The position numbers and the translations under genes were made by a program. Source: Anaerolineae bacterium (lineage in GTDB: Bacteria; Chloroflexota; Anaerolineae; B4-G1; SLSP01). From it: a stretch of 8,710 bases of DNA. Each line of letters starts with the position of its first letter. The first letter of the stretch is position 1. Positions 1-8,710 of this stretch are shown piece by piece. The notes beneath the pieces were generated by a model that saw nothing but the letters and a program-made list of their open reading frames with translations, was not told the origin of the DNA and did not search any database. The stretch is from NCBI GenBank assembly GCA_016934645.1, contig JAFGSL010000198.1, forward strand, positions 1 through 8,710, read 5' to 3'.

Positions 1-72
1 ATGCGGATTGTGTTTGACACTGTCCTGCCGCAATGGAACTACCGTGTCCTGCCCACCCGGACAGTTATTTAA
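1..72 (+). CDS. Possible C-terminal end of an unidentified protein (left-truncated)
   Basis: The frame starting at base 1 stays open for 23 codons and stops with TAA at 70-72, giving a peptide that ends PQWNYRVLPTRTVI. Whether the ATG at base 1 is a start or an internal Met cannot be told, because the window begins there. A hairpin that could be a terminator follows about 40 bases later, and the next gene is convergent, so this is a natural place for a + strand gene to end. The WNY near the end recalls the tails of some transposases, but 23 residues are far too few for a family call. Frame 2 is also open to about base 85, so the call is weak. Confidence 0.25.
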   Translation: MRIVFDTVLPQWNYRVLPTRTVI

Positions 73-110
73 TTCCCATTCCTAAGCGGATAAGCGACTG
101 CAAAAGGATA

Positions 111-144
111 GCCCCCTGCACAATGGTTGCAAGGGGCCTTGTTT
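111..144. terminator. Hairpin between convergent gene ends, probable bidirectional terminator
   Basis: Arms 111-120 (GCCCCCTGCA) and 128-137 (TGCAAGGGGC) form a 10-position stem with one C-A mismatch at 116/132 and a 7-base loop. On the + strand the stem is followed by CTTGTTTAT. On the - strand it is followed by a TCCTTTT stretch. Both T-tracts are imperfect. The hairpin lies between the possible + strand gene end at 72 and the - strand gene end at 205, which suits a shared terminator. Confidence 0.5.
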
Positions 145-204
145 ATGATCGTGGTTCAGGCAGATAACTCGTGAGACTTTTGTGGTTTGATGCCTATGCC
201 TTGT

Positions 205-984
205 TCAGCGGACGGGATTGCGTAGCGCGCCTACATTCTCGATGTTTACCTCGACTACATCGCCGGGCATTAATGGACCGACGCCAGCCGGTGTGCCGGT
301 AAGGAATATGTCGCCCGGCTCGATCGTCATCACGCTGGCGGCATAGGCGATGAGCATCGCGGGCGAGAACACCATCTGGCTCGTGCGCCCCTGTTGCCGT
401 ACCTCTCCGTTGACGCGGCAGACCACGCCAAGGTCCGCAACGTCTGCCTCCCGCAGACCGGTCACAATCCATGGTCCGACAGGGCAGAAGGTGTCGAAGC
501 CCTTGCCGCGCGTCCATTGTCCATCCTTGCGCTGTAAATCGCGGGCGGTGACGTCGTTGCTGCATGTGACGCCGAGTACATAATCCCAAGCTTCTTCCGC
601 AATGACGTTGCGGCAGCGTTTGCCAATCACCACCGCCAACTCGGCTTCGTGTTCCACCCGCTGCGAAAGTACCGGCATGACTATGCTATCTCCCGGCCCG
701 ATAACGCTACTCGGTGGTTTGAGGAAGAGCAGTGGTTCGGCGGGCACCTCGACCCCGTGCTCGGCGGCGTGCGCTACGTAGTTGCGCCCCACACAGATGA
801 CTTTCGTTGGGTAAACTGGCGGCAACAGCGTAACCGTCTCCAGGGGCCCGACAGGCTCTCCTCGCGAACCGCCGCTGTAGGGATTGCCTTCCAGCCGGTA
901 GACTTGATCCTGCTCTAGCAAGGCCCATTTGCTTTCGCCTTGGTCGTCGATGCGAATCAGACGTGAAATAGAAGTCGTATGCAT
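205..984 (-). CDS. Fumarylacetoacetate hydrolase (FAH) superfamily protein
   Basis: This 259-residue protein belongs to the FAH superfamily, metal-dependent enzymes that hydrolyse, decarboxylate or isomerise 2-oxo and enol acids such as acylpyruvates, oxaloacetate and ring-cleavage products of aromatic degradation. Visible family motifs are [11 protein letters not shown] (65-75), [11 protein letters not shown] (87-97), EHEAELAVV (111-119), NDVTARDLQ (143-151), [12 protein letters not shown] (161-172), LTGTPAGVG (228-236) and the end [10 protein letters not shown] (249-258). By family knowledge, E113, E115 and D144 should bind the divalent metal. The ATG at 984 is preferred over an upstream in-frame ATG at 1029 because GGAGG (994-990) lies 5 bases before it. 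The length suits a single-domain FAHD1-like enzyme. The gene is divergent from the large + strand operon. Substrate cannot be assigned: acylpyruvase, oxaloacetate decarboxylase and a diene-dioate isomerase all remain possible. Confidence 0.92.
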
Positions 985-1034
985 TTTTTCCTCCAAATTG
1001 TGATCGGCGTGACTAACATTGCACTCCATATACT

Positions 1035-1052
1035 GTTATAGTGTGGTTATAG
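1035..1052. repeat. Direct repeat GTTATAG with 11-bp period, possible operator
   Basis: GTTATAG occurs at 1035-1041 and again at 1046-1052, separated by TGTG. The 11-bp period places both copies on the same DNA face, and the pair covers the -10 box and much of the spacer of the proposed - strand promoter. This is the geometry of a repressor site, but two 7-bp copies in AT-rich DNA could arise by chance. Confidence 0.3.
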
Positions 1053-1062
1053 ATGAAGTCAA
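1035..1062 (-). promoter_or_regulatory. Candidate sigma-70-type promoter for the FAH-family gene
   Basis: Read on the - strand, TTGACT (1062-1057) and TATAAC (1040-1035) are separated by 16 bases, close to the consensus -35 and -10 boxes. The -10 lies about 50 bases upstream of the chosen ATG at 984. The assignment is by inspection only. Confidence 0.5.
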
Positions 1063-1064
1063 CT

Positions 1065-1081
1065 ACGCAGGAACCCTGCGT
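1065..1081. promoter_or_regulatory. Perfect inverted repeat ACGCAGG-AAC-CCTGCGT
   Basis: Two 7-bp arms (1065-1071 and 1075-1081) are perfect inverted complements around a 3-base centre. The element starts three bases upstream of the proposed - strand -35 box. It lacks a T-tract and sits far from any gene end, so a protein-binding site in the divergent promoter region is more likely than a terminator. Confidence 0.35.
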
Positions 1082-1086
1082 GCGCG

Positions 1087-1103
1087 AAAACTTGACGAGT
1101 TTT
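1087..1103. promoter_or_regulatory. Inverted repeat AAAACT-TGACG-AGTTTT
   Basis: Six-bp arms at 1087-1092 and 1098-1103 flank TGACG. It is the second dyad in the divergent intergenic region, 6 bases past the first. It could be an operator half-site pair for either direction. A hairpin with a short T run on both strands is also possible, but the stem is AT-rich and weak. Confidence 0.25.
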
Positions 1104-1148
1104 AGTACAAACATCGTCTCCCCGCCTTTGCGAGGTCGATTAGCGACT

Positions 1149-1176
1149 TTGGTTTCTTGTCACAACATTGTATAAT
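1149..1176 (+). promoter_or_regulatory. Candidate promoter for the CHAT-FGE operon
   Basis: A perfect TATAAT lies at 1171-1176. A weak -35 match, TTGGTT, sits at 1149-1154 with a 16-base spacer. Transcription would start near 1183, giving a leader of roughly 20-25 bases that contains the purine-rich ribosome-binding stretch at 1191-1201. It is the only clear promoter candidate ahead of the six tightly packed + strand genes. Confidence 0.5.
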
Positions 1177-1205
1177 TCAGATGACTATTCAGGTGGGGGG
1201 GCGAC

Positions 1206-3266
1206 TTGGACTATCTAGATTTTGAACTCGAAATCGGCGTAGGAGATGAGCTGGAATATCCAGTGGCAGTGCTACGTTCTCCGGCGGGTGAGGCTCGCGA
1301 GCGAGTCGAATTTCCTTTTGGCGAATTAGAAATGGAAAACCGCCTGCAGGCGCTCCAGATCGCGTTGTTGCGCACTGGGAACATCTTGCGACAGGTTTTA
1401 ACGCCTGAAGAACATGCCGTGCGAGATTTCGGGCGTGCACTGTTCGAAATGTTGCTTTGTCGCGAGGTGCGCAGCCGTTATGATGTAAGTCTACGCGAGG
1501 CGGCTTCGCAGGGCAAAGGCTTGCGCATCAAGCTACGTGTGCAATCGCCGGTGTTGGCGGCCCTGCCGTGGGAATTTATCTATGATCCGCGCAACGCGGA
1601 ATACGTCTGTCTCTCGCGCAACACTCCCTTGGTGCGTTACCTGGAACTCCCACAGCCGCAGCAGCCCCTGCGCGCCGAACTGCCGTTGCGTATCCTGGGC
1701 ATGGCTGTCAGTCCGGAAGGATTGCCACCGCTGGATATAGTGCAAGAGAAGGAGCGCGTGGAAACTGCTCTGGAGGGGTTGCGTGCAGCGGGTTTGGTGA
1801 CGTTGACGTGGCTGGAGGGCCAGACATGGCGTGACTTGCAGCGTGAATTGCGTCACGGCCCCTGGCATATTTTCCATTTCATCGGCCACGGTGGCTTCGA
1901 CCGGGCAGCGGATGAGGGCTTTGTCGCGCTGGTTGACGAGACAGGTAATGCCTGTGATTTGAGCGCAACGCAGTTGGGCCGGTTGCTGGCCGATCACCGT
2001 GACCTGCGACTGGCGTTGCTTAACGCCTGTGAGGGAGCGCGCGGCAGCGCGCAGGACATCTTCTCCGCGACGGCGGCGATTCTAATGCGACGTGGACTGC
2101 CGGCAGTGCTGGCGATGCAGTACCCTATCACCGATCGTGCCGCCATCGAATTTTCGCGCACGTTTTACGAGGCGTTAGCCGATGGGTTGCCCGTGGATAC
2201 GGCAACGACGGAGGCGCGCCAGGCGATCAGCTACGTCGCACCGCACTCGGTGGAGTGGGGAGTCCCCGTGTTGTATATGCGCGCTGCGGATGGCGTTCTG
2301 TTCGACGTGCGGGCTAGGCAACCGAAGCGCCAACCGTTGGTTGAATCTCCATCGTCTGTTCCTCACGTAGTTGCGTGGCCAGAGCGCGATCAAACTCAGA
2401 TGCCTAAAATACCACGTGTAGCGGAGATATCGTCTATTCCGGTGCTCGATGTAGAATTGGTTTACATTTCGCCTGGTGATTTTGTGATGGGTAGCGATCC
2501 ACGCCAGGGCGAGTTTGTTCAGGATGAGGAATTGCCCGAGCACACACTAATATTGCCTGAATATTATCTGGCGCGCACTCCTGTGACGAATAGGCAGTAT
2601 CTTGCCTTCGTACAGGCGCGTGACTACCATCGCCCGGAGCACTGGCCAAGTGATGGTTTTCCAGAAGAGCAGGCCGATCACCCAGTGATCAATGTCACTT
2701 GGTATGATGCGACGGCCTATTGTACATGGCTGACGGAGCAATTGAGTGCTGAAGAGTGCAAGCTAAAGGTGTGGCGTGCTGAGCACTGGGAGACGATTGC
2801 CGTCGATGGCAAAACTTGCCGTTTCCAGCTCCCTTCTGAGGCCGAGTGGGAGAAGGGTGCGCGCGGCACTGATGGCCGTCTCTACCCGTGGGGCAACCTT
2901 TGGGATGCGAAGCGCTGCAATACGAAGGAGTCCCGTAGCGTGATGACGACGCCAGTGGACGCTTATCCGCTTGGCACAAGTCCGTTTGGGGTGTTAGATG
3001 TGGCAGGGAACGTCTGGGAGTGGACGCGCACACTGTGGGGCGCTGATATTCTTGAGTCGCCGTTCAAGTATCCTTATAATCCTGCAGATGGTCGTGAAGA
3101 CATAGAGGCAGGCAAGTGGACGCATCGTGTTCTGCGCGGCGGTTCTTTTAACTATGGGCGCGATGCGGCACGCTGTGCCAGCCGCAATCGTCTCCTACCC
3201 GATCATAGTAATTGGTACGTTGGCTTCCGTGTGGCCTTGTTGAAAGGAAATTCCTCAACAGGTTGA
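1206..3266 (+). CDS. CHAT-domain protease fused to an FGE-sulfatase (SUMF1-like) domain
   Basis: The 686-residue protein has two modules. Residues about 1-370 form a CHAT domain, a caspase-like cysteine protease fold. ALPWEFIYDP lies at 119-128, the catalytic His is H228 in HFIGHGGFD, and the catalytic Cys is C275 in LLNACEGA, so the dyad is intact. After a Pro/Gln-rich linker (about 369-410), residues 415-680 form an FGE-sulfatase domain of C-type-lectin-like fold: FVMGS (426-430), HPVINVTWYDA (492-502), LPSEAEWEKGARG (542-554), GNVWEWT (601-607), RVLRGGSF (641-648) and YVGFRVA (671-677). In true formylglycine-generating enzymes two cysteines follow the RGGS motif; Y650 and A655 stand there, so that chemistry is unlikely and a binding or recognition role is inferred. 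The start is TTG at 1206: the frame is closed just upstream by TGA at 1182-1184, a G-rich ribosome-binding stretch precedes it, and translation from there begins with a regular CHAT-type N-terminus. The target is unknown. There is no signal peptide, so it is probably cytosolic. It is the first gene of the apparent operon. Confidence 0.9.
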   Translation: MDYLDFELEIGVGDELEYPVAVLRSPAGEARERVEFPFGELEMENRLQALQIALLRTGNILRQVLTPEEHAVRDFGRALFEMLLCREVRSRYDVSLREAASQGKGLRIKLRVQSPVLAALPWEFIYDPRNAEYVCLSRNTPLVRYLELPQPQQPLRAELPLRILGMAVSPEGLPPLDIVQEKERVETALEGLRAAGLVTLTWLEGQTWRDLQRELRHGPWHIFHFIGHGGFDRAADEGFVALVDETGNACDLSATQLGRLLADHRDLRLALLNACEGARGSAQDIFSATAAILMRRGLPAVLAMQYPITDRAAIEFSRTFYEALADGLPVDTATTEARQAISYVAPHSVEWGVPVLYMRAADGVLFDVRARQPKRQPLVESPSSVPHVVAWPERDQTQMPKIPRVAEISSIPVLDVELVYISPGDFVMGSDPRQGEFVQDEELPEHTLILPEYYLARTPVTNRQYLAFVQARDYHRPEHWPSDGFPEEQADHPVINVTWYDATAYCTWLTEQLSAEECKLKVWRAEHWETIAVDGKTCRFQLPSEAEWEKGARGTDGRLYPWGNLWDAKRCNTKESRSVMTTPVDAYPLGTSPFGVLDVAGNVWEWTRTLWGADILESPFKYPYNPADGREDIEAGKWTHRVLRGGSFNYGRDAARCASRNRLLPDHSNWYVGFRVALLKGNSSTG

Positions 3267-3298
3267 ACAGTTTCTCTCGTTTCTGAGTTGGAGAGGTA

Positions 3299-4075
3299 AT
3301 GGAACTACTGCAACGTGAATTGCGTGGGTTACGGATCTGGCAGATCGTAGTACTGGTGGTACTCGTTGTGAGTGTGACGTTGGGTGTGGTTGGTGGGATC
3401 ACGTTGTTACAGCAGGTTTCCGAACCGGAGACGCCCGCACCGACCATGCTCCCACCCACGCGGACGCCCGTCCCACCCACCGCGCGTCCCACGCGGACAC
3501 CCACGCCGACCGCTACGCCCACGCCGACGATAACGCCATCACCGACCGCCACCCCCCTGCCGACATCCACCCCAACCCCCACGCCGATTGCCGTCATCAC
3601 CGGCATCAACGCTTTTGGCCGACTGGAGACCGTCCAGTACACCATGCGCGACATCGTGCGGATCGAGGATGAACCAACGGGCCTCTTGGAGCGTTTTTCG
3701 CGGGACCGGCTGATGCTGATCGCGGAAGGCGAAGTGGTGGCAGGCTTCGATCTCACGAAAGTGACCGAAGACGACATTGTTGTGTACGGGACGAGGGTGT
3801 TGATTTTCCTGCCGCCGCCGGAAATTCTCTACAGTCGCATCGACAACGACGGCACCTACGTCTACGAGCGCGAAACGGGGATTCTGCGCCGCCCCGATCC
3901 CGATTTGGAGACTGCCGCGCGCCGTCTGGCCGAGGCGCAACTGGTCAGTTGGGCGCTGGAGCGGGACATTCTTGATCAAGCTGAGGAAACTGGCGTTATC
4001 TATATGGAAAACTTCCTGCGTTCGTTAGGCTTCACCCAGGTTAGCGTTGAGGTGCGTCCCTTTGAAGGCGAATAA
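3299..4075 (+). CDS. Membrane-anchored DUF4230 protein with Thr-Pro-rich stalk
   Basis: This 258-residue protein has a short basic N-terminus, one strong hydrophobic segment (about 13-37, rich in V, L and I), a Thr/Pro-rich stalk (about 43-97) and a globular domain (about 98-252). The globular part, beginning INAFGRLETVQYTMRDIVRIED and continuing LMLIAEGEVVAGFDL, resembles DUF4230, a family of unknown function. The TM segment has no obvious cleavage site, so it is probably an uncleaved anchor with the stalk and DUF4230 domain outside the membrane. The ATG at 3299 is preceded by GGAGAGG (3290-3296). It lies 32 bases after the CHAT-FGE gene, and its 3' end overlaps the polyferredoxin gene. The role is unknown; position suggests it serves the same pathway as its neighbours. 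The TP stalk is typical of Chloroflexota surface proteins. Confidence 0.85.
   Translation: MELLQRELRGLRIWQIVVLVVLVVSVTLGVVGGITLLQQVSEPETPAPTMLPPTRTPVPPTARPTRTPTPTATPTPTITPSPTATPLPTSTPTPTPIAVITGINAFGRLETVQYTMRDIVRIEDEPTGLLERFSRDRLMLIAEGEVVAGFDLTKVTEDDIVVYGTRVLIFLPPPEILYSRIDNDGTYVYERETGILRRPDPDLETAARRLAEAQLVSWALERDILDQAEETGVIYMENFLRSLGFTQVSVEVRPFEGE
3425..3589 (+). repeat. Low-complexity Thr-Pro stalk coding region
   Basis: About 55 codons are dominated by ACG/ACC and CCC/CCG, giving irregular TPTPT and TPTATPT repeats. The + strand is strongly C-rich and nearly G-poor here, which also creates a long Gly/Val-rich open frame on the opposite strand. Tracts like this can vary in length between strains. 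Confidence 0.8.
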
Positions 4076-5687
4076 GCAACGGTTCCGCATCCGTCCCCAA
4101 AACTGGCGGCGCTTGCGCCAGGGCGTGCAAATCCTGTCTTTTTTGCTGTTTAGCTATCTGTTTGTTTTTGCGACTTTCCTGAGTCCCAATCGTGCCTGGG
4201 CCGATCTTTTCTATCGCCTCGATCCCCTCGTGGCGCTCACGGCGATGTTGGCTGGGCGCGCGGTGATCGCAGGATTGGGCTACGCCGGACTGACGTTGCT
4301 GCTCACGCTGATCTTTGGGCGGGTGTGGTGCGGTTGGTTGTGCCCCTTCGGGACGCTGCTCGAATGGCTCACACCGCGTCGCGTCAAACGCGCCACGCGC
4401 CGCAAGGGGCCACCGGAGAAGTGGCGGGCGATCAAGTATCTGCTGCTCGTCGTCATCCTCGTCGCGGCGGTATTGGGCAACCAATCGTTGCTTTTCCTCG
4501 ACCCGATCACGATCATGACACGCACGTTGATCACGGCGATCTGGCCGGCACTGCGCGATGCGGTCTACAAATCCGAAGCCTTTCTCTATCGTTTTCCGTT
4601 CCTGTGGGAGATGTTGGACTTCGTTCATAACAACGTGATCTATCCCCTTTTTAGGGACGTGATTTCTGTTTTCGCGCTGACCGTGCCGGTTTTTCTTTTC
4701 TTCCTCACGATTGTTGGGTTGAATTGGTGGGCGGAGCGTTTCTGGTGCCGGTATCTGTGTCCTTTGGGCGGATTGTTGGCGCTGCTCTCGAAGTTATCGT
4801 TGGTGCGGCGTGAAGTGGGGACGACGTGCGCGGCATGTGCGCTGTGCAACGGGCAATGTCCCACCGGTGCTATTGATCCTGCCGATGGTTACCGTAGCGA
4901 TCCCGCCGAGTGCGTCGTCTGCTACGACTGTATCGTGGATTGTTCGCGCGAGGGCATTGCCTTCCGTTGGGTCGCGCCGACGTGGCCGCCGGTTAAGAGC
5001 TACGAATACGATCCCTCACGCCGCGCGCTGTTGGCGAGCGTAGGAGCGGCGGCAGCGGGTGTGGCGCTGGCAGGCGTGGAACCGATCGCGCGACGGCAGC
5101 CCGCTAACCTTGTGCGTCCGCCCGGCGCTACGCTAACCGAATTCGAGGCATTGTGCATCCGTTGCAACGAGTGCGTGCGTGTCTGTCCCACACAAGGGTT
5201 GCAGCCGGCACTCTTCGAGGCCGGTGTACAGAACGTCCTTACGCCGCATCTCGTTCCCCGGCTTGGCTACTGCGATTACAGTTGCACGGCCTGTGGCGAG
5301 GTCTGCCCGACGGGAGCTATCCCGCCATTGCCGCTGGAAGAGAAGCGCCACACGCCCATCGGACTGGCGCGCATCGACCAGAACCGCTGTCTGCCGTGGG
5401 CTTACAACATCCCCTGCATCGTCTGTGAAGAAGCGTGCCCCGTCCAGCACAAGGCGATCTGGCTCGAGACAGCGCAGGTTTTCAACGCGAGCTCCGAGCT
5501 GATCACGATCCAGCGACCCTACATTGTGAAGGAGTTGTGCATCGGCTGCGGTATCTGCGAGTACCAGTGCCCGATGGGCGGTGAAAGCGCCATCCGTGTT
5601 TACGCACCAACGGAGGCTGGCGGCTATCTGGGCGACGATCCTAACTACCGTCCACGCAAAGGCCGGCGAGGAGGGGGAGAGGAATGA
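4062..5687 (+). CDS. Fused NapH-NapG-like membrane polyferredoxin with six [4Fe-4S] cysteine sets
   Basis: The 541-residue protein should pass electrons between the quinone pool or membrane partners and a redox enzyme. Residues 1-300 resemble NapH: about four TM helices (21-40, 66-86, 124-140, 199-221), the paired motifs CGWLCPFG (90-97) and CRYLCPLGG (229-237), and two cysteine sets (C256/259/262/266 and C284/287/290/294). Residues 318-340 look like an internal Tat signal, SRRALLASV followed by an Ala/Gly/Val-rich hydrophobic stretch. The rest resembles NapG with four sets: C365/368/371/375, C404/408/411/415, C443/452/455/459 and C493/496/499/503. If the Tat-like helix spans the membrane, this second half faces outward. 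Start choice: TTG at 4062 has GAGG nine bases upstream; TTG at 4047, with AGG six bases upstream, would add five residues. The gene overlaps DUF4230 by 14 bases and shares ATGA with the AOR gene, so translational coupling is likely. The fusion makes it distinct from separate napG and napH, so no symbol is given. Confidence 0.88.
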   Translation: MKANKQRFRIRPQNWRRLRQGVQILSFLLFSYLFVFATFLSPNRAWADLFYRLDPLVALTAMLAGRAVIAGLGYAGLTLLLTLIFGRVWCGWLCPFGTLLEWLTPRRVKRATRRKGPPEKWRAIKYLLLVVILVAAVLGNQSLLFLDPITIMTRTLITAIWPALRDAVYKSEAFLYRFPFLWEMLDFVHNNVIYPLFRDVISVFALTVPVFLFFLTIVGLNWWAERFWCRYLCPLGGLLALLSKLSLVRREVGTTCAACALCNGQCPTGAIDPADGYRSDPAECVVCYDCIVDCSREGIAFRWVAPTWPPVKSYEYDPSRRALLASVGAAAAGVALAGVEPIARRQPANLVRPPGATLTEFEALCIRCNECVRVCPTQGLQPALFEAGVQNVLTPHLVPRLGYCDYSCTACGEVCPTGAIPPLPLEEKRHTPIGLARIDQNRCLPWAYNIPCIVCEEACPVQHKAIWLETAQVFNASSELITIQRPYIVKELCIGCGICEYQCPMGGESAIRVYAPTEAGGYLGDDPNYRPRKGRRGGGEE

Positions 5688-7654
5688 ACGGGCAACCGGT
5701 TCGCTTGTTGGTGATTGACGCGGGGCGGCAGCGGTATCATTTGCGCACGTTGCGCGCCGGGACTATGAGCCACGATCCGCGCGACGATTACACGCTTTTG
5801 GGTGGTGAATCGCTGTGCCAGTACCTCCTGCGGGAAGACCCTGGTGCACTCGTCATTGCGTGTGGACCGCTGCCATTTCTGGCGGGGAATAAAACCACGG
5901 TGGGCTACGTCTCTCCGTTGACCGGCTTGCCGCATTATAGTTTCGTCGGCGGGCGCGGATTTGCGGCGTTGTTCAACCTGGGGCTGGATGCGATCGTTTT
6001 TGAATCGGCGAATGAGCGAATCGGCGAATTACGAATCACGAATCACGAATCACGAATTCCTGATCCCCGATTACCAGTTACCAATTACCTTGTTGTCTCC
6101 GGGCGAGCGCCGCACCTGACCGTTGAGTGGAAATCCGCTACTGAGTTGCCGGCGGGCCAGCGCAGCGCCTACTATTGGCTGTTGGAGCGGGAGCTTGGCG
6201 GGCGGCAGGAGGATGGCAGCCTCTTCACCCTCGGCGAGGGAGCGCGTTACGGCTATCGCGCTGCCAACCTCGCCGTGGATGGCCTCTATCACGCTGGACG
6301 GGGTGGGGCGGGTCACGTCTTTGCCCGGTACGCGGCGGCGCTCGTTCTGCACGGTGAATCACTGACGTTGGAGGCGTGGTTTGGATCGCGCGCGGAAGCA
6401 TTCCGCGACCTGCGCAACGGTGAAATCCGACGCCGTATCGAAACCTACTGCGCGCGGCTTTCACGGCGCGATGGCGGCACAGTGACGAAGCTCTACACCA
6501 CCGGCAGCGGTAAAAATCCTACGTTGCCTGCGCGCAACGCGCAACGCCTCGGCTACGCGTTGGCCGATTTGGGCGCGCGCAAGGTGCTGCACGCCAGCCG
6601 CGTCGGGCAGACGGGCTGCCATTGGTGCCAGGTGAATTGCCGTCACTGGCATTGGGTGGACGTGGACTACGCGCCCGGCGGGCGGGATATGTTTCTGGAT
6701 GACTTTGAGCCGACCTACGCGCTGTTTGCGATGCTCGACCTGCAGCCGGAGAACGACGCGCTTGACGCGCGGCTACGTCTGCTGGATGAGGTGGATCGCC
6801 GCATCGTTGTTCCCCTTGAACAACTGGGCTGCGATGTGATCGACGTGGGCGTAGGATTGGCGGCGCTGTTTGAGGGCTTGGCGCGGGGCATCATCCCGTC
6901 TGAGGACGTTCCGGCGTTCGCGCGCACAGGCCCCTATTTCGGCAACCTCGATGTGGCGGCGCAGATTGTGGCGGTGTTACGAGAAGGGACGGCGTCTCCT
7001 GCGTTGCGTGCGCTCGGTGACGGGTCACAGGCACTTGCTGAGGTGTACCCGGCGCTGCGTGACATCGTCTTCACGTCGGGAAAAGGCACGTTGGGCAATC
7101 CCGGTCACGCCAACGCGCTGTGGACGTTCCTGATGCCGTTCTCGCGCTTTTTCAGCCATTACTCCGGGCAAATCTACAAAGTGCCGGGCGAGCTGAAACC
7201 GGGCCTCAGTCCCGCCGAAACGCAGACACTCTTTGAGCACGTGATCGTGGAGATGCTGAAGCGGGAGACGTTCGGCTGCCTCGGCAACGCCCTCTCGCTG
7301 TGCGCCTTTACGTTCGTCGTCTTCAGCAAGGACGGCGCGGGCGTCGAACTCGACGGTGACCTGCTGGCGCGGACGCTCGCGCTGTACGGCATCGATGTGC
7401 ATCGCGAAGACCTGTTGTGGTTCGCCGAGGCGTTCTGGGCGCAGTCCATCGCGCTCAAGATCGCGCACGGGTGGCAACCGCCGCGCGCCGAAGACTTCCC
7501 CGCGCGCGTCTTCGAGACCCTCTCGCAGACCTTGGCCCTGCCGGTGGATGACTTGCGTGGCCTGATGAACCAGTTGATCGTGGAGTGGGAGAAACAGGCG
7601 GGGGCGTTGCTGGCGAAGTATGGGTATGAGGACATAACGGATGACATCTTCTGA
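5684..7654 (+). CDS. Divergent aldehyde ferredoxin oxidoreductase (AOR) family protein
   Basis: The 656-residue protein matches the AOR family, cytosolic tungsten- or molybdenum-bis-pterin enzymes that oxidise aldehydes or related substrates and pass electrons on through one [4Fe-4S] cluster. The N-terminal domain shows LGGESLCQYLL (39-49), VIACGPLPF (57-65), SPLTGLPHYSFVGGRGF (77-93) and DAIVFE (102-107). Cluster ligands are C312, C315 and C319 (CHWCQVNC), with C540 (LSLCAF) as the probable fourth. The two pterin-binding motifs, DxxGLD and DxxGLC in characterised AORs, here read EQLGCD (379-384) and NALSLC (535-540), and the usual GGRG near the N-terminus reads GGES, so this is an off-main-line member. 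Residues about 109-134 are encoded by a heptamer-rich insertion. The ATG at 5684 overlaps the previous stop as ATGA and has GGAGGG eight bases upstream. The adjoining polyferredoxin is the obvious electron partner. Substrate and metal are unknown. Confidence 0.85.
   Translation: MNGQPVRLLVIDAGRQRYHLRTLRAGTMSHDPRDDYTLLGGESLCQYLLREDPGALVIACGPLPFLAGNKTTVGYVSPLTGLPHYSFVGGRGFAALFNLGLDAIVFESANERIGELRITNHESRIPDPRLPVTNYLVVSGRAPHLTVEWKSATELPAGQRSAYYWLLERELGGRQEDGSLFTLGEGARYGYRAANLAVDGLYHAGRGGAGHVFARYAAALVLHGESLTLEAWFGSRAEAFRDLRNGEIRRRIETYCARLSRRDGGTVTKLYTTGSGKNPTLPARNAQRLGYALADLGARKVLHASRVGQTGCHWCQVNCRHWHWVDVDYAPGGRDMFLDDFEPTYALFAMLDLQPENDALDARLRLLDEVDRRIVVPLEQLGCDVIDVGVGLAALFEGLARGIIPSEDVPAFARTGPYFGNLDVAAQIVAVLREGTASPALRALGDGSQALAEVYPALRDIVFTSGKGTLGNPGHANALWTFLMPFSRFFSHYSGQIYKVPGELKPGLSPAETQTLFEHVIVEMLKRETFGCLGNALSLCAFTFVVFSKDGAGVELDGDLLARTLALYGIDVHREDLLWFAEAFWAQSIALKIAHGWQPPRAEDFPARVFETLSQTLALPVDDLRGLMNQLIVEWEKQAGALLAKYGYEDITDDIF
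6001..6090 (+). repeat. Heptamer tandem array embedded in frame in the AOR gene
   Basis: Five 7-bp units run from 6025 to 6059: CGAATTA, three exact CGAATCA copies (6032-6052), then CGAATTC. Looser CGAAT-containing units precede it, with GAATCGGCGAAT at both 6002 and 6018. A run of TTACC-type units follows up to 6090. The stretch encodes roughly residues 109-134 (ELRITNHESRIPDPRLP in the middle), a polar peptide unlike the flanking protein, placed between the family motif DAIVFE and the strand YLVVSG. It reads as an intergenic-type repeat that entered the gene without breaking the frame. Confidence 0.75.
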
Positions 7655-8504
7655 CCAATCTATGCTTGGCAAAGTCTGCATGGTCACCGGCGCTGCCTCT
7701 GGCATCGGCGCGGTGACAGCGCATGCATTGGCACAACAAGGCGCATCTGTGATCCTCGTGGACCGCAGCGCAACAAAGGGCGTCATTGTTGTCGACCAAA
7801 TAAAGCGGCAAACGGGCAATACCGCGCTCGAGTTTCTGAGGGTAGATCTCTCCTCGCAGAAAGAGATTCACCAACTGGTGCAGCAGTTCACGAGCCGGCA
7901 TCGGCACCTACATGTGCTGGTCAATAATGCCGGGGCCATGTTTGCCGAGCGGCAGGAGAGCGTCGACGGGATCGAGATGACGTTCGCTCTTAATTACTTG
8001 GGGTACTTCCTGCTGACGAATCTCCTGCTCGACACGCTCAAAGCCAGCGCTCCGGCCCGCATCATTAACACATCATCCCGCTCGCACGCCAGAGCGAAGA
8101 TCAACTTTGACGATCTGGAAAGCCGGTCGGGATACAAAGGCTTGTCGGCCTATGCGCACTCCAAACTCGCCATTGTGCTATTCACTTATGAACTGGCGCG
8201 GCGGTTGGAAGGCACAGGTGTGACGGTCAACGCGCTGCATCCGGGCATCGTGGCGACGAACTTTGCGATGAAGAGCGGCGGGGCCATCGGCCTGGTTATG
8301 CGCTTGTTCCGCCCGCTTTTTGTCGGCCCTGAACAGGGAGCACAGACTGGTATCTACCTGGCAACCTCGCCAGAAGTCGAGGGCGTGACAGGGAAATACT
8401 TCGTGAAGTGCAAAGCCGTTCCGTCCTCCCCGGTCTCCTACGACACGGCTGCTGCGCGTCGGTTGTGGGAAGTGAGCGAAAAGTACACCAACCTGGGCGG
8501 CTAG
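7641..8504 (+). CDS. Short-chain dehydrogenase/reductase (SDR), retinol-dehydrogenase-like
   Basis: This 287-residue classical-type SDR should interconvert an alcohol and a carbonyl using NAD(P)H. Visible elements are the nucleotide-binding TGAASGIG (16-23), D41 at the end of the second strand (which favours NAD(H)), DL at 69-70, NNAG (95-98), catalytic S146 in NTSSRSHA, and YAHSK with Y171 and K175. The PGIVATNF stretch (201-208) also fits. The 25-residue Ser-to-Tyr spacing and overall pattern resemble the RDH11-14/WWOX branch more than FabG-like enzymes, but the natural substrate is unknown. The ATG at 7641 overlaps the AOR gene by 14 bases and has GAGG nine bases upstream; the later ATG at 7662 has no visible ribosome-binding site. 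Overlap with the AOR-like gene suggests joint expression, perhaps acting on a related aldehyde or alcohol. Confidence 0.93.
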   Translation: MTSSDQSMLGKVCMVTGAASGIGAVTAHALAQQGASVILVDRSATKGVIVVDQIKRQTGNTALEFLRVDLSSQKEIHQLVQQFTSRHRHLHVLVNNAGAMFAERQESVDGIEMTFALNYLGYFLLTNLLLDTLKASAPARIINTSSRSHARAKINFDDLESRSGYKGLSAYAHSKLAIVLFTYELARRLEGTGVTVNALHPGIVATNFAMKSGGAIGLVMRLFRPLFVGPEQGAQTGIYLATSPEVEGVTGKYFVKCKAVPSSPVSYDTAAARRLWEVSEKYTNLGG

Positions 8505-8506
8505 AA

Positions 8507-8710
8507 GTGATTGTGGATACACACGCTCAAACGTACGACTTTACCTGTGAAAAACCTGACGATGATACCTTCAAGCGTTTTTTGCAAGGGATTCTGAACG
8601 AATACCACGAGACGGCTTACCCCGCGATGGAGGTGCCACAATCCCGGAATTTCGTCATGCGGGTAACGAACGCACGCGGCGATGTCGTGGGTGGCGCTCT
8701 CTTCTGGGCC
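8507..8710 (+). CDS. Probable GNAT-family N-acetyltransferase, N-terminal part only
   Basis: The frame opens at GTG 8507, two bases after the SDR stop, and runs uninterrupted for 68 codons to the window edge, where it is cut. The translation has an N-terminal helix region (FKRFLQGILNEYHETAYP) followed by FVMRVTNARGDVVGGALFW, the strand-turn-strand with a Gly pair that starts many GNAT acetyltransferases before the acetyl-CoA loop. That loop (RxxGxG/A) would lie beyond the edge, so the call is provisional. An in-frame GTG at 8513 is an alternative start. A weak GGGCGG lies 7 bases before 8507. It continues the tight + strand gene series. Confidence 0.55.
   Translation, partial: MIVDTHAQTYDFTCEKPDDDTFKRFLQGILNEYHETAYPAMEVPQSRNFVMRVTNARGDVVGGALFWA

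Follow-up and report, generated by a model that had tools for sequence, protein, structure and literature searches.

A CHAT protease fused to a lectin-fold domain in an Anaerolineae bacterium, with a conserved loop at a site diversified by retroelements in its relatives

The 8,710-nucleotide stretch of Anaerolineae DNA analysed here (contig JAFGSL010000198.1, positions 1 to 8,710; hereafter the window) contains, at positions 1206..3266, a 686-residue open reading frame (ORF) with a TTG start that joins a CHAT protease domain to a formylglycine-generating enzyme (FGE)-like domain; positions are on the forward strand unless stated. The bare CHAT-FGE fusion is common, and the interesting part of this protein is its C-terminal loop. 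Why is a loop that diversity-generating retroelements (DGRs) hypermutate in related proteins conserved (hereafter fixed) in the lineage to which the window's protein belongs?

Profile searches identified CHAT (PF12770, E 5.2e-26) at residues 74-342 (1425..2231) and FGE-sulfatase (PF03781, E 6.6e-49) at residues 417-677 (2454..3236), both far beyond chance, confirming the single-chain fusion proposed by an earlier sequence-only reading; residues 1-73 (1206..1424) lie ahead of the CHAT match. The intact His/Cys dyad proposed in that reading is also present. The presumed catalytic residues His228 (1887..1889) and Cys275 (2028..2030) are kept in 119 and 118, respectively, of 120 aligned proteins (the window's own counted), line up with HFIGHG and LNAC, the corresponding motifs in SAVED-CHAT (8tl0), and come directly after strands 222-227 and 269-274 in an AlphaFold 2 (AF2) model. 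Profile match and dyad place the protein among the CHAT proteases, and proteolysis is predicted on these sequence grounds. The FGE half shows structural and profile matches to FGE, EgtB, PvdO and ToxD, has a fold like that of DGR variable proteins (2y3c), and ends in the RGG..GFR tail at residues 644-675 (3135..3230). Another CHAT protein, P0024, carries two FGE stretches.

Comparison with homologues and templates indicated that this tail is homologous to the DGR variable region, which FGE/C-type lectin (CLec)-type variable proteins carry at the equivalent site. In the examined stretches of three of 13 loci (L006, L009 and L010), CHAT-FGE genes adjoin an Asn-rich template and a DGR-type reverse transcriptase with an IGNLTSQ motif, whose SQ form we take to be a mark of these enzymes; their products share 43%, 66% and 43% best-segment identity with the window's protein. 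L009 also encodes Avd (NF033474), and an extra reverse transcriptase pattern match there falls inside the CHAT-FGE gene itself and is due to chance. Over the 96 bases encoding RGG..GFR, all 56 template/target mismatches in four pairs from these loci lie at template adenines (15/15 and 14/14 in L006, 17/17 in L009, 10/10 in L010), as do 59 of 62 over a wider 108-base span, with a template A content of 28-32%. Mismatches also fall at template adenines in NACHT-FGE targets (14/14, 18/18 and 16/16) and kinase-FGE targets (15/15 and 10/11). Loop variation in this family is hence DGR-made, as the template/target pairs reveal. No DGR-type reverse transcriptase was found within the examined stretches of L005 and L007, which have variable tails. 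Among the loci encoding other targets, L090 (6218-12682), from a genome with a fixed CHAT-FGE gene as well, holds a DGR with a template at 10053-10148 and two protein kinase-FGE targets, and the DGR with a NACHT-FGE target in L081/L037 has a reverse transcriptase gene broken by a TAA stop.

To quantify loop conservation, pairs drawn from 116 of the 120 proteins were compared at the 12 loop positions that correspond to template asparagines. In the window's clade, whose 28 proteins gave 378 pairs, mean identity at these positions was 0.64 and that of the FGE core 0.70; the corresponding values were 0.71 and 0.73 in a second fixed clade (five proteins, 10 pairs) and 0.10 and 0.56 in the unfixed remainder (3,080 pairs), where the loop was more alike than the core in one pair only (P0070-P0080). 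At backbone identities of 0.85-0.90, loop identity was 0.79 in 67 pairs among P0001-P0018 versus 0.15 in the nine pairs set against them. Within the 18 closest proteins, identity was 0.79 for both the loop and the FGE core, and 0.91 for CHAT. Hypervariability of the loop was thus not seen in the protein comparison among close relatives of the window, the DNA evidence toward locus L002 being mixed. The second fixed clade, made up of P0054, P0055, P0060, P0062 and P0066 and including the member at L003 (11906-12001), has a different conserved loop.

At the DNA level, synonymous and non-synonymous changes in the 12 codons number 9 and 1 between the window and its orthologue in L001, and 9 and 3 between the window and that in L078, compared to 2.8-4 and 12-15.5 in six diversified pairs. 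These counts provide good sequence support for plain constraint on the loop between the window and these two nearest orthologues. The three pairs involving L002 (8.8/9.2, 6.7/11.3 and 8.7/13.3) give weak support: synonymous changes are still many and loop residues are more alike than in diversified proteins, but at this distance the proportion of non-synonymous change (pN) alone does not tell the loop from those of diversified pairs.

The relationship between the two fixed clades was addressed with a tree of CHAT and FGE core, tail excluded, comprising 63 hand-picked rows out of 127, with groups named after the tails were known. In this tree the two fixed clades stand apart from each other among variable lineages, the window's with 14 rows and support 100/99, the second with four rows and 100/100; two changes are required, and a single clade was rejected (approximately unbiased test, p-AU 0.0048). 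A quick CHAT-only tree of all 127 rows, poorly resolved, again placed the fixed members in two groups, and holding the fixed clades together beat the free search by 44.8 log-likelihood units (p 0.77). Two separate fixations of the loop are likely but not settled, since the CHAT and FGE-core tree splits the clades and the CHAT-only test does not.

With moderate confidence, we propose that in the window's protein a sensor of DGR descent gates the CHAT protease and has settled on a constant ligand, and that the protease cuts a host protein in a defence or stress response. The chain would combine a caspase-like CHAT cysteine protease, a flexible linker and a C-type-lectin (FGE-fold) sensor. Comparison of homologues shows that the C-terminal loop of this sensor family, hypermutated by DGRs in relatives, is no longer hypervariable in the window's clade, where its rate of evolution is about as low as that of the surrounding domain. 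The loop may recognise one constant ligand, whose binding would free or align the CHAT active site through the hinge; the protease would then cut a host protein, possibly membrane-linked, with the adjacent DUF4230 protein as a candidate partner and defence or stress response as the outcome. The Pro-rich linker (residues 371-412; 2316..2441), previously suggested as a cleavage or hinge site, is disordered over residues 371-410 in the model. It is 38% identical among 18 close relatives, with a length of 52-64 residues in the 14 where a script delimited it, so no conserved cleavage motif was seen. In some relatives, EAD7, EAD2, EAD1 or TIR domains sit between the two halves; P0019, 87% identical to the window's protein over 57% of the query, carries EAD7, and profile annotation detected no effector-associated domain (EAD) in the window's protein. 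On a broader scale, we tentatively read the family history, at somewhat below even confidence, as a DGR-diversified immune receptor-protease that became, probably on two occasions, a constant receptor passed on by vertical inheritance: a bacterial adaptive-to-innate transition, seen alongside its diversified relatives and with DGRs persisting elsewhere in genomes that have the fixed gene. The conserved-loop lineage offers one stable receptor for which a ligand can be sought, and a natural setting in which to ask whether fixed innate receptors can arise from a retroelement-diversified repertoire.

Several points weigh against this proposal. The loop is conserved to the same degree as the core, not above it, and its conservation could reflect a structural role or a contact within the protein rather than ligand binding. 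Clade members were first spotted through their shared tail. Between L001 and L078, the 12 codons show two synonymous and four non-synonymous changes; in the three L002 pairs, loop pN (0.32-0.47) overlaps that of diversified pairs (0.41-0.53) and exceeds that of their own FGE core (0.22-0.24), and the corresponding synonymous proportion is saturated in several pairs. The rows of the CHAT and FGE-core tree were hand-picked once the CHAT-only test had left the fixed clades unseparated, and the variable state of the ancestor rests on parsimony, which is not proof. Finally, searches of the 8.7-kb window turned up neither a DGR reverse transcriptase nor a template, one of them being a weak test whose pattern lacked a chance expectation; these searches were confined to the window, and a template may lie elsewhere in the genome.

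An unlikely alternative is that the loop is conserved through packing on its own CHAT half or on the DUF4230 partner, in autoinhibition or complex assembly, and not by an external ligand. The gene neighbourhood lends it some weight. The DUF4230 gene (3299..4075), whose product has a long N-terminal helix, likely a membrane anchor, and a Pro/Thr-rich stretch, lies next to the CHAT-FGE gene in the window, L078 and L002; the L001 contig stops shortly past CHAT-FGE, and its end resembles, in an antisense frame, the start of a DUF4230 gene. Contigs of the same size (43919, 38506 and 12118) in the two protein lists hint at three more linked pairs, and no DUF4230 match was obtained in any locus with a diversified CHAT-FGE, many of these loci being short. 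Against this alternative, the AF2 model, a single chain with a predicted template modelling score of 0.56, does not fix the domain arrangement and lends no evidence of such a contact. Profile annotation and locus comparison identified a divergent fumarylacetoacetate hydrolase-family (FAAH) gene (205..1029, reverse strand), retained in L001, L078 and L002, and, downstream of DUF4230, genes for a NapH/NapG-like polyferredoxin (4047..5687), which overlaps the DUF4230 gene, and an aldehyde ferredoxin oxidoreductase-like (AOR) protein (5684..7654) that matched no NCBIfam model at E 0.1. The latter two also overlap (4047-7654) and may form one operon with CHAT-FGE. This gene order is common to the window and L078 (genome G020, 78% identity), where just a 33-residue SDR match lies beyond AOR; in L002, NapGH and AOR were not found within the remaining 1.3 kb.

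It is improbable that the fixed clade was never diversified and represents the ancestral sensor that gave rise to DGR targets. The poor resolution of the CHAT-only tree and its better likelihood with the fixed clades joined favour this possibility; the separation of both clades among variable lineages in the CHAT and FGE-core tree opposes it. More doubtful still is continued diversification, either slow or strongly purged, driven by a DGR located elsewhere in the genome. Genomes G020 and G002, both with fixed relatives, do contain DGRs elsewhere, loop replacements rise toward L002, and strong purifying selection can hide DGR activity, according to the part of PMC8144416 drawn on here. Yet the three G020/G002 templates compared, a set leaving out DGRs L091 and L080, whose templates were not found, match fixed tails at just 47-60 of 96 bases, and changes between the window and L001 or L078 are mostly synonymous. 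The window's tail, with 41-47 mismatches of 96 bases against five templates, is a copy of none, and no DGR reverse transcriptase was found in G001, as its single reverse transcriptase match has QGSPLSP.

An enzymatic role for the FGE half, akin to sulfatase maturation or sulfoxide synthesis, with CHAT as its regulator is very improbable, since despite the PF03781 and structural matches noted above Cys occupies neither copper position in 120 aligned proteins and the putative active site coincides with the hypervariable region of unfixed members. The sequence-only reading had placed Y650 and A655 at the positions of the FGE copper cysteines. An ungapped count from RGGS equates them with C336 and C341 of SUMF1 (numbering as given in the 2aft and 2afy titles), and gaps interrupt this stretch in the HMMER alignment to SUMF1; both residues were confirmed, C657 is the sole Cys in the tail, and instead of an alignment with two conserved active-site cysteines we obtained none at columns 650 and 655 (three and one gaps, respectively). 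The absence of copper cysteines is explained by the post-RGGS stretch being the variable region of DGR-targeted lectin-fold proteins. The earlier idea of a death-protease-like effector joined to a recognition domain accordingly stands in part, its recognition half belonging to a DGR-variable-protein family.

Among known systems, SUMF1 and bacterial FGE share the fold of the window's FGE half but have copper cysteines where the window's protein has a stretch corresponding to the DGR variable region. In the published account (Dore et al. 2024, PMC10907252), drawn on here in part, DGR-diversified CLec/FGE proteins with effector domains, whose loops differ from copy to copy, are proposed to act as antigen sensors in multicellular bacteria, a function still awaiting a test in that work. 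One reported target has CHAT and TIR domains, so DGR-diversified CHAT sensors are already in print; no description of a fixed member was found in the parts of the literature searched. The window's protein shares with these sensors the C-terminal variable-region fold and a conflict effector, but its variable region is conserved, it has no NTPase domain and the window yielded neither reverse transcriptase nor template. FGS/EAD conflict systems (Kaur et al. 2020, PMC7159879; 2021, PMC8195603), in the portions cited, likewise place a C-terminal FGS/FGE behind effectors, and the EAD7, EAD2 and EAD1 domains of relatives are parts known from them; the window's protein lacks EAD or STAND, and no MoxR-vWA gene is among the six main annotated window ORFs. 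Craspase TPR-CHAT (Csx29, dyad H615/C658; PMC10028731, in part) has the same CHAT fold, its chain residues 397-716 aligning in a single span with residues 2-361 of the window's protein, but no TPR family was matched at E 1 or better, no gRAMP/Cas7-11 partner is among those six ORFs, and the sensor of the window's protein, a lectin fold, is part of the protease chain itself. SAVED-CHAT (8tl0) shares the CHAT fold as well as the dyad motifs, and the window's protein has an FGE-fold sensor where 8tl0 has SAVED.
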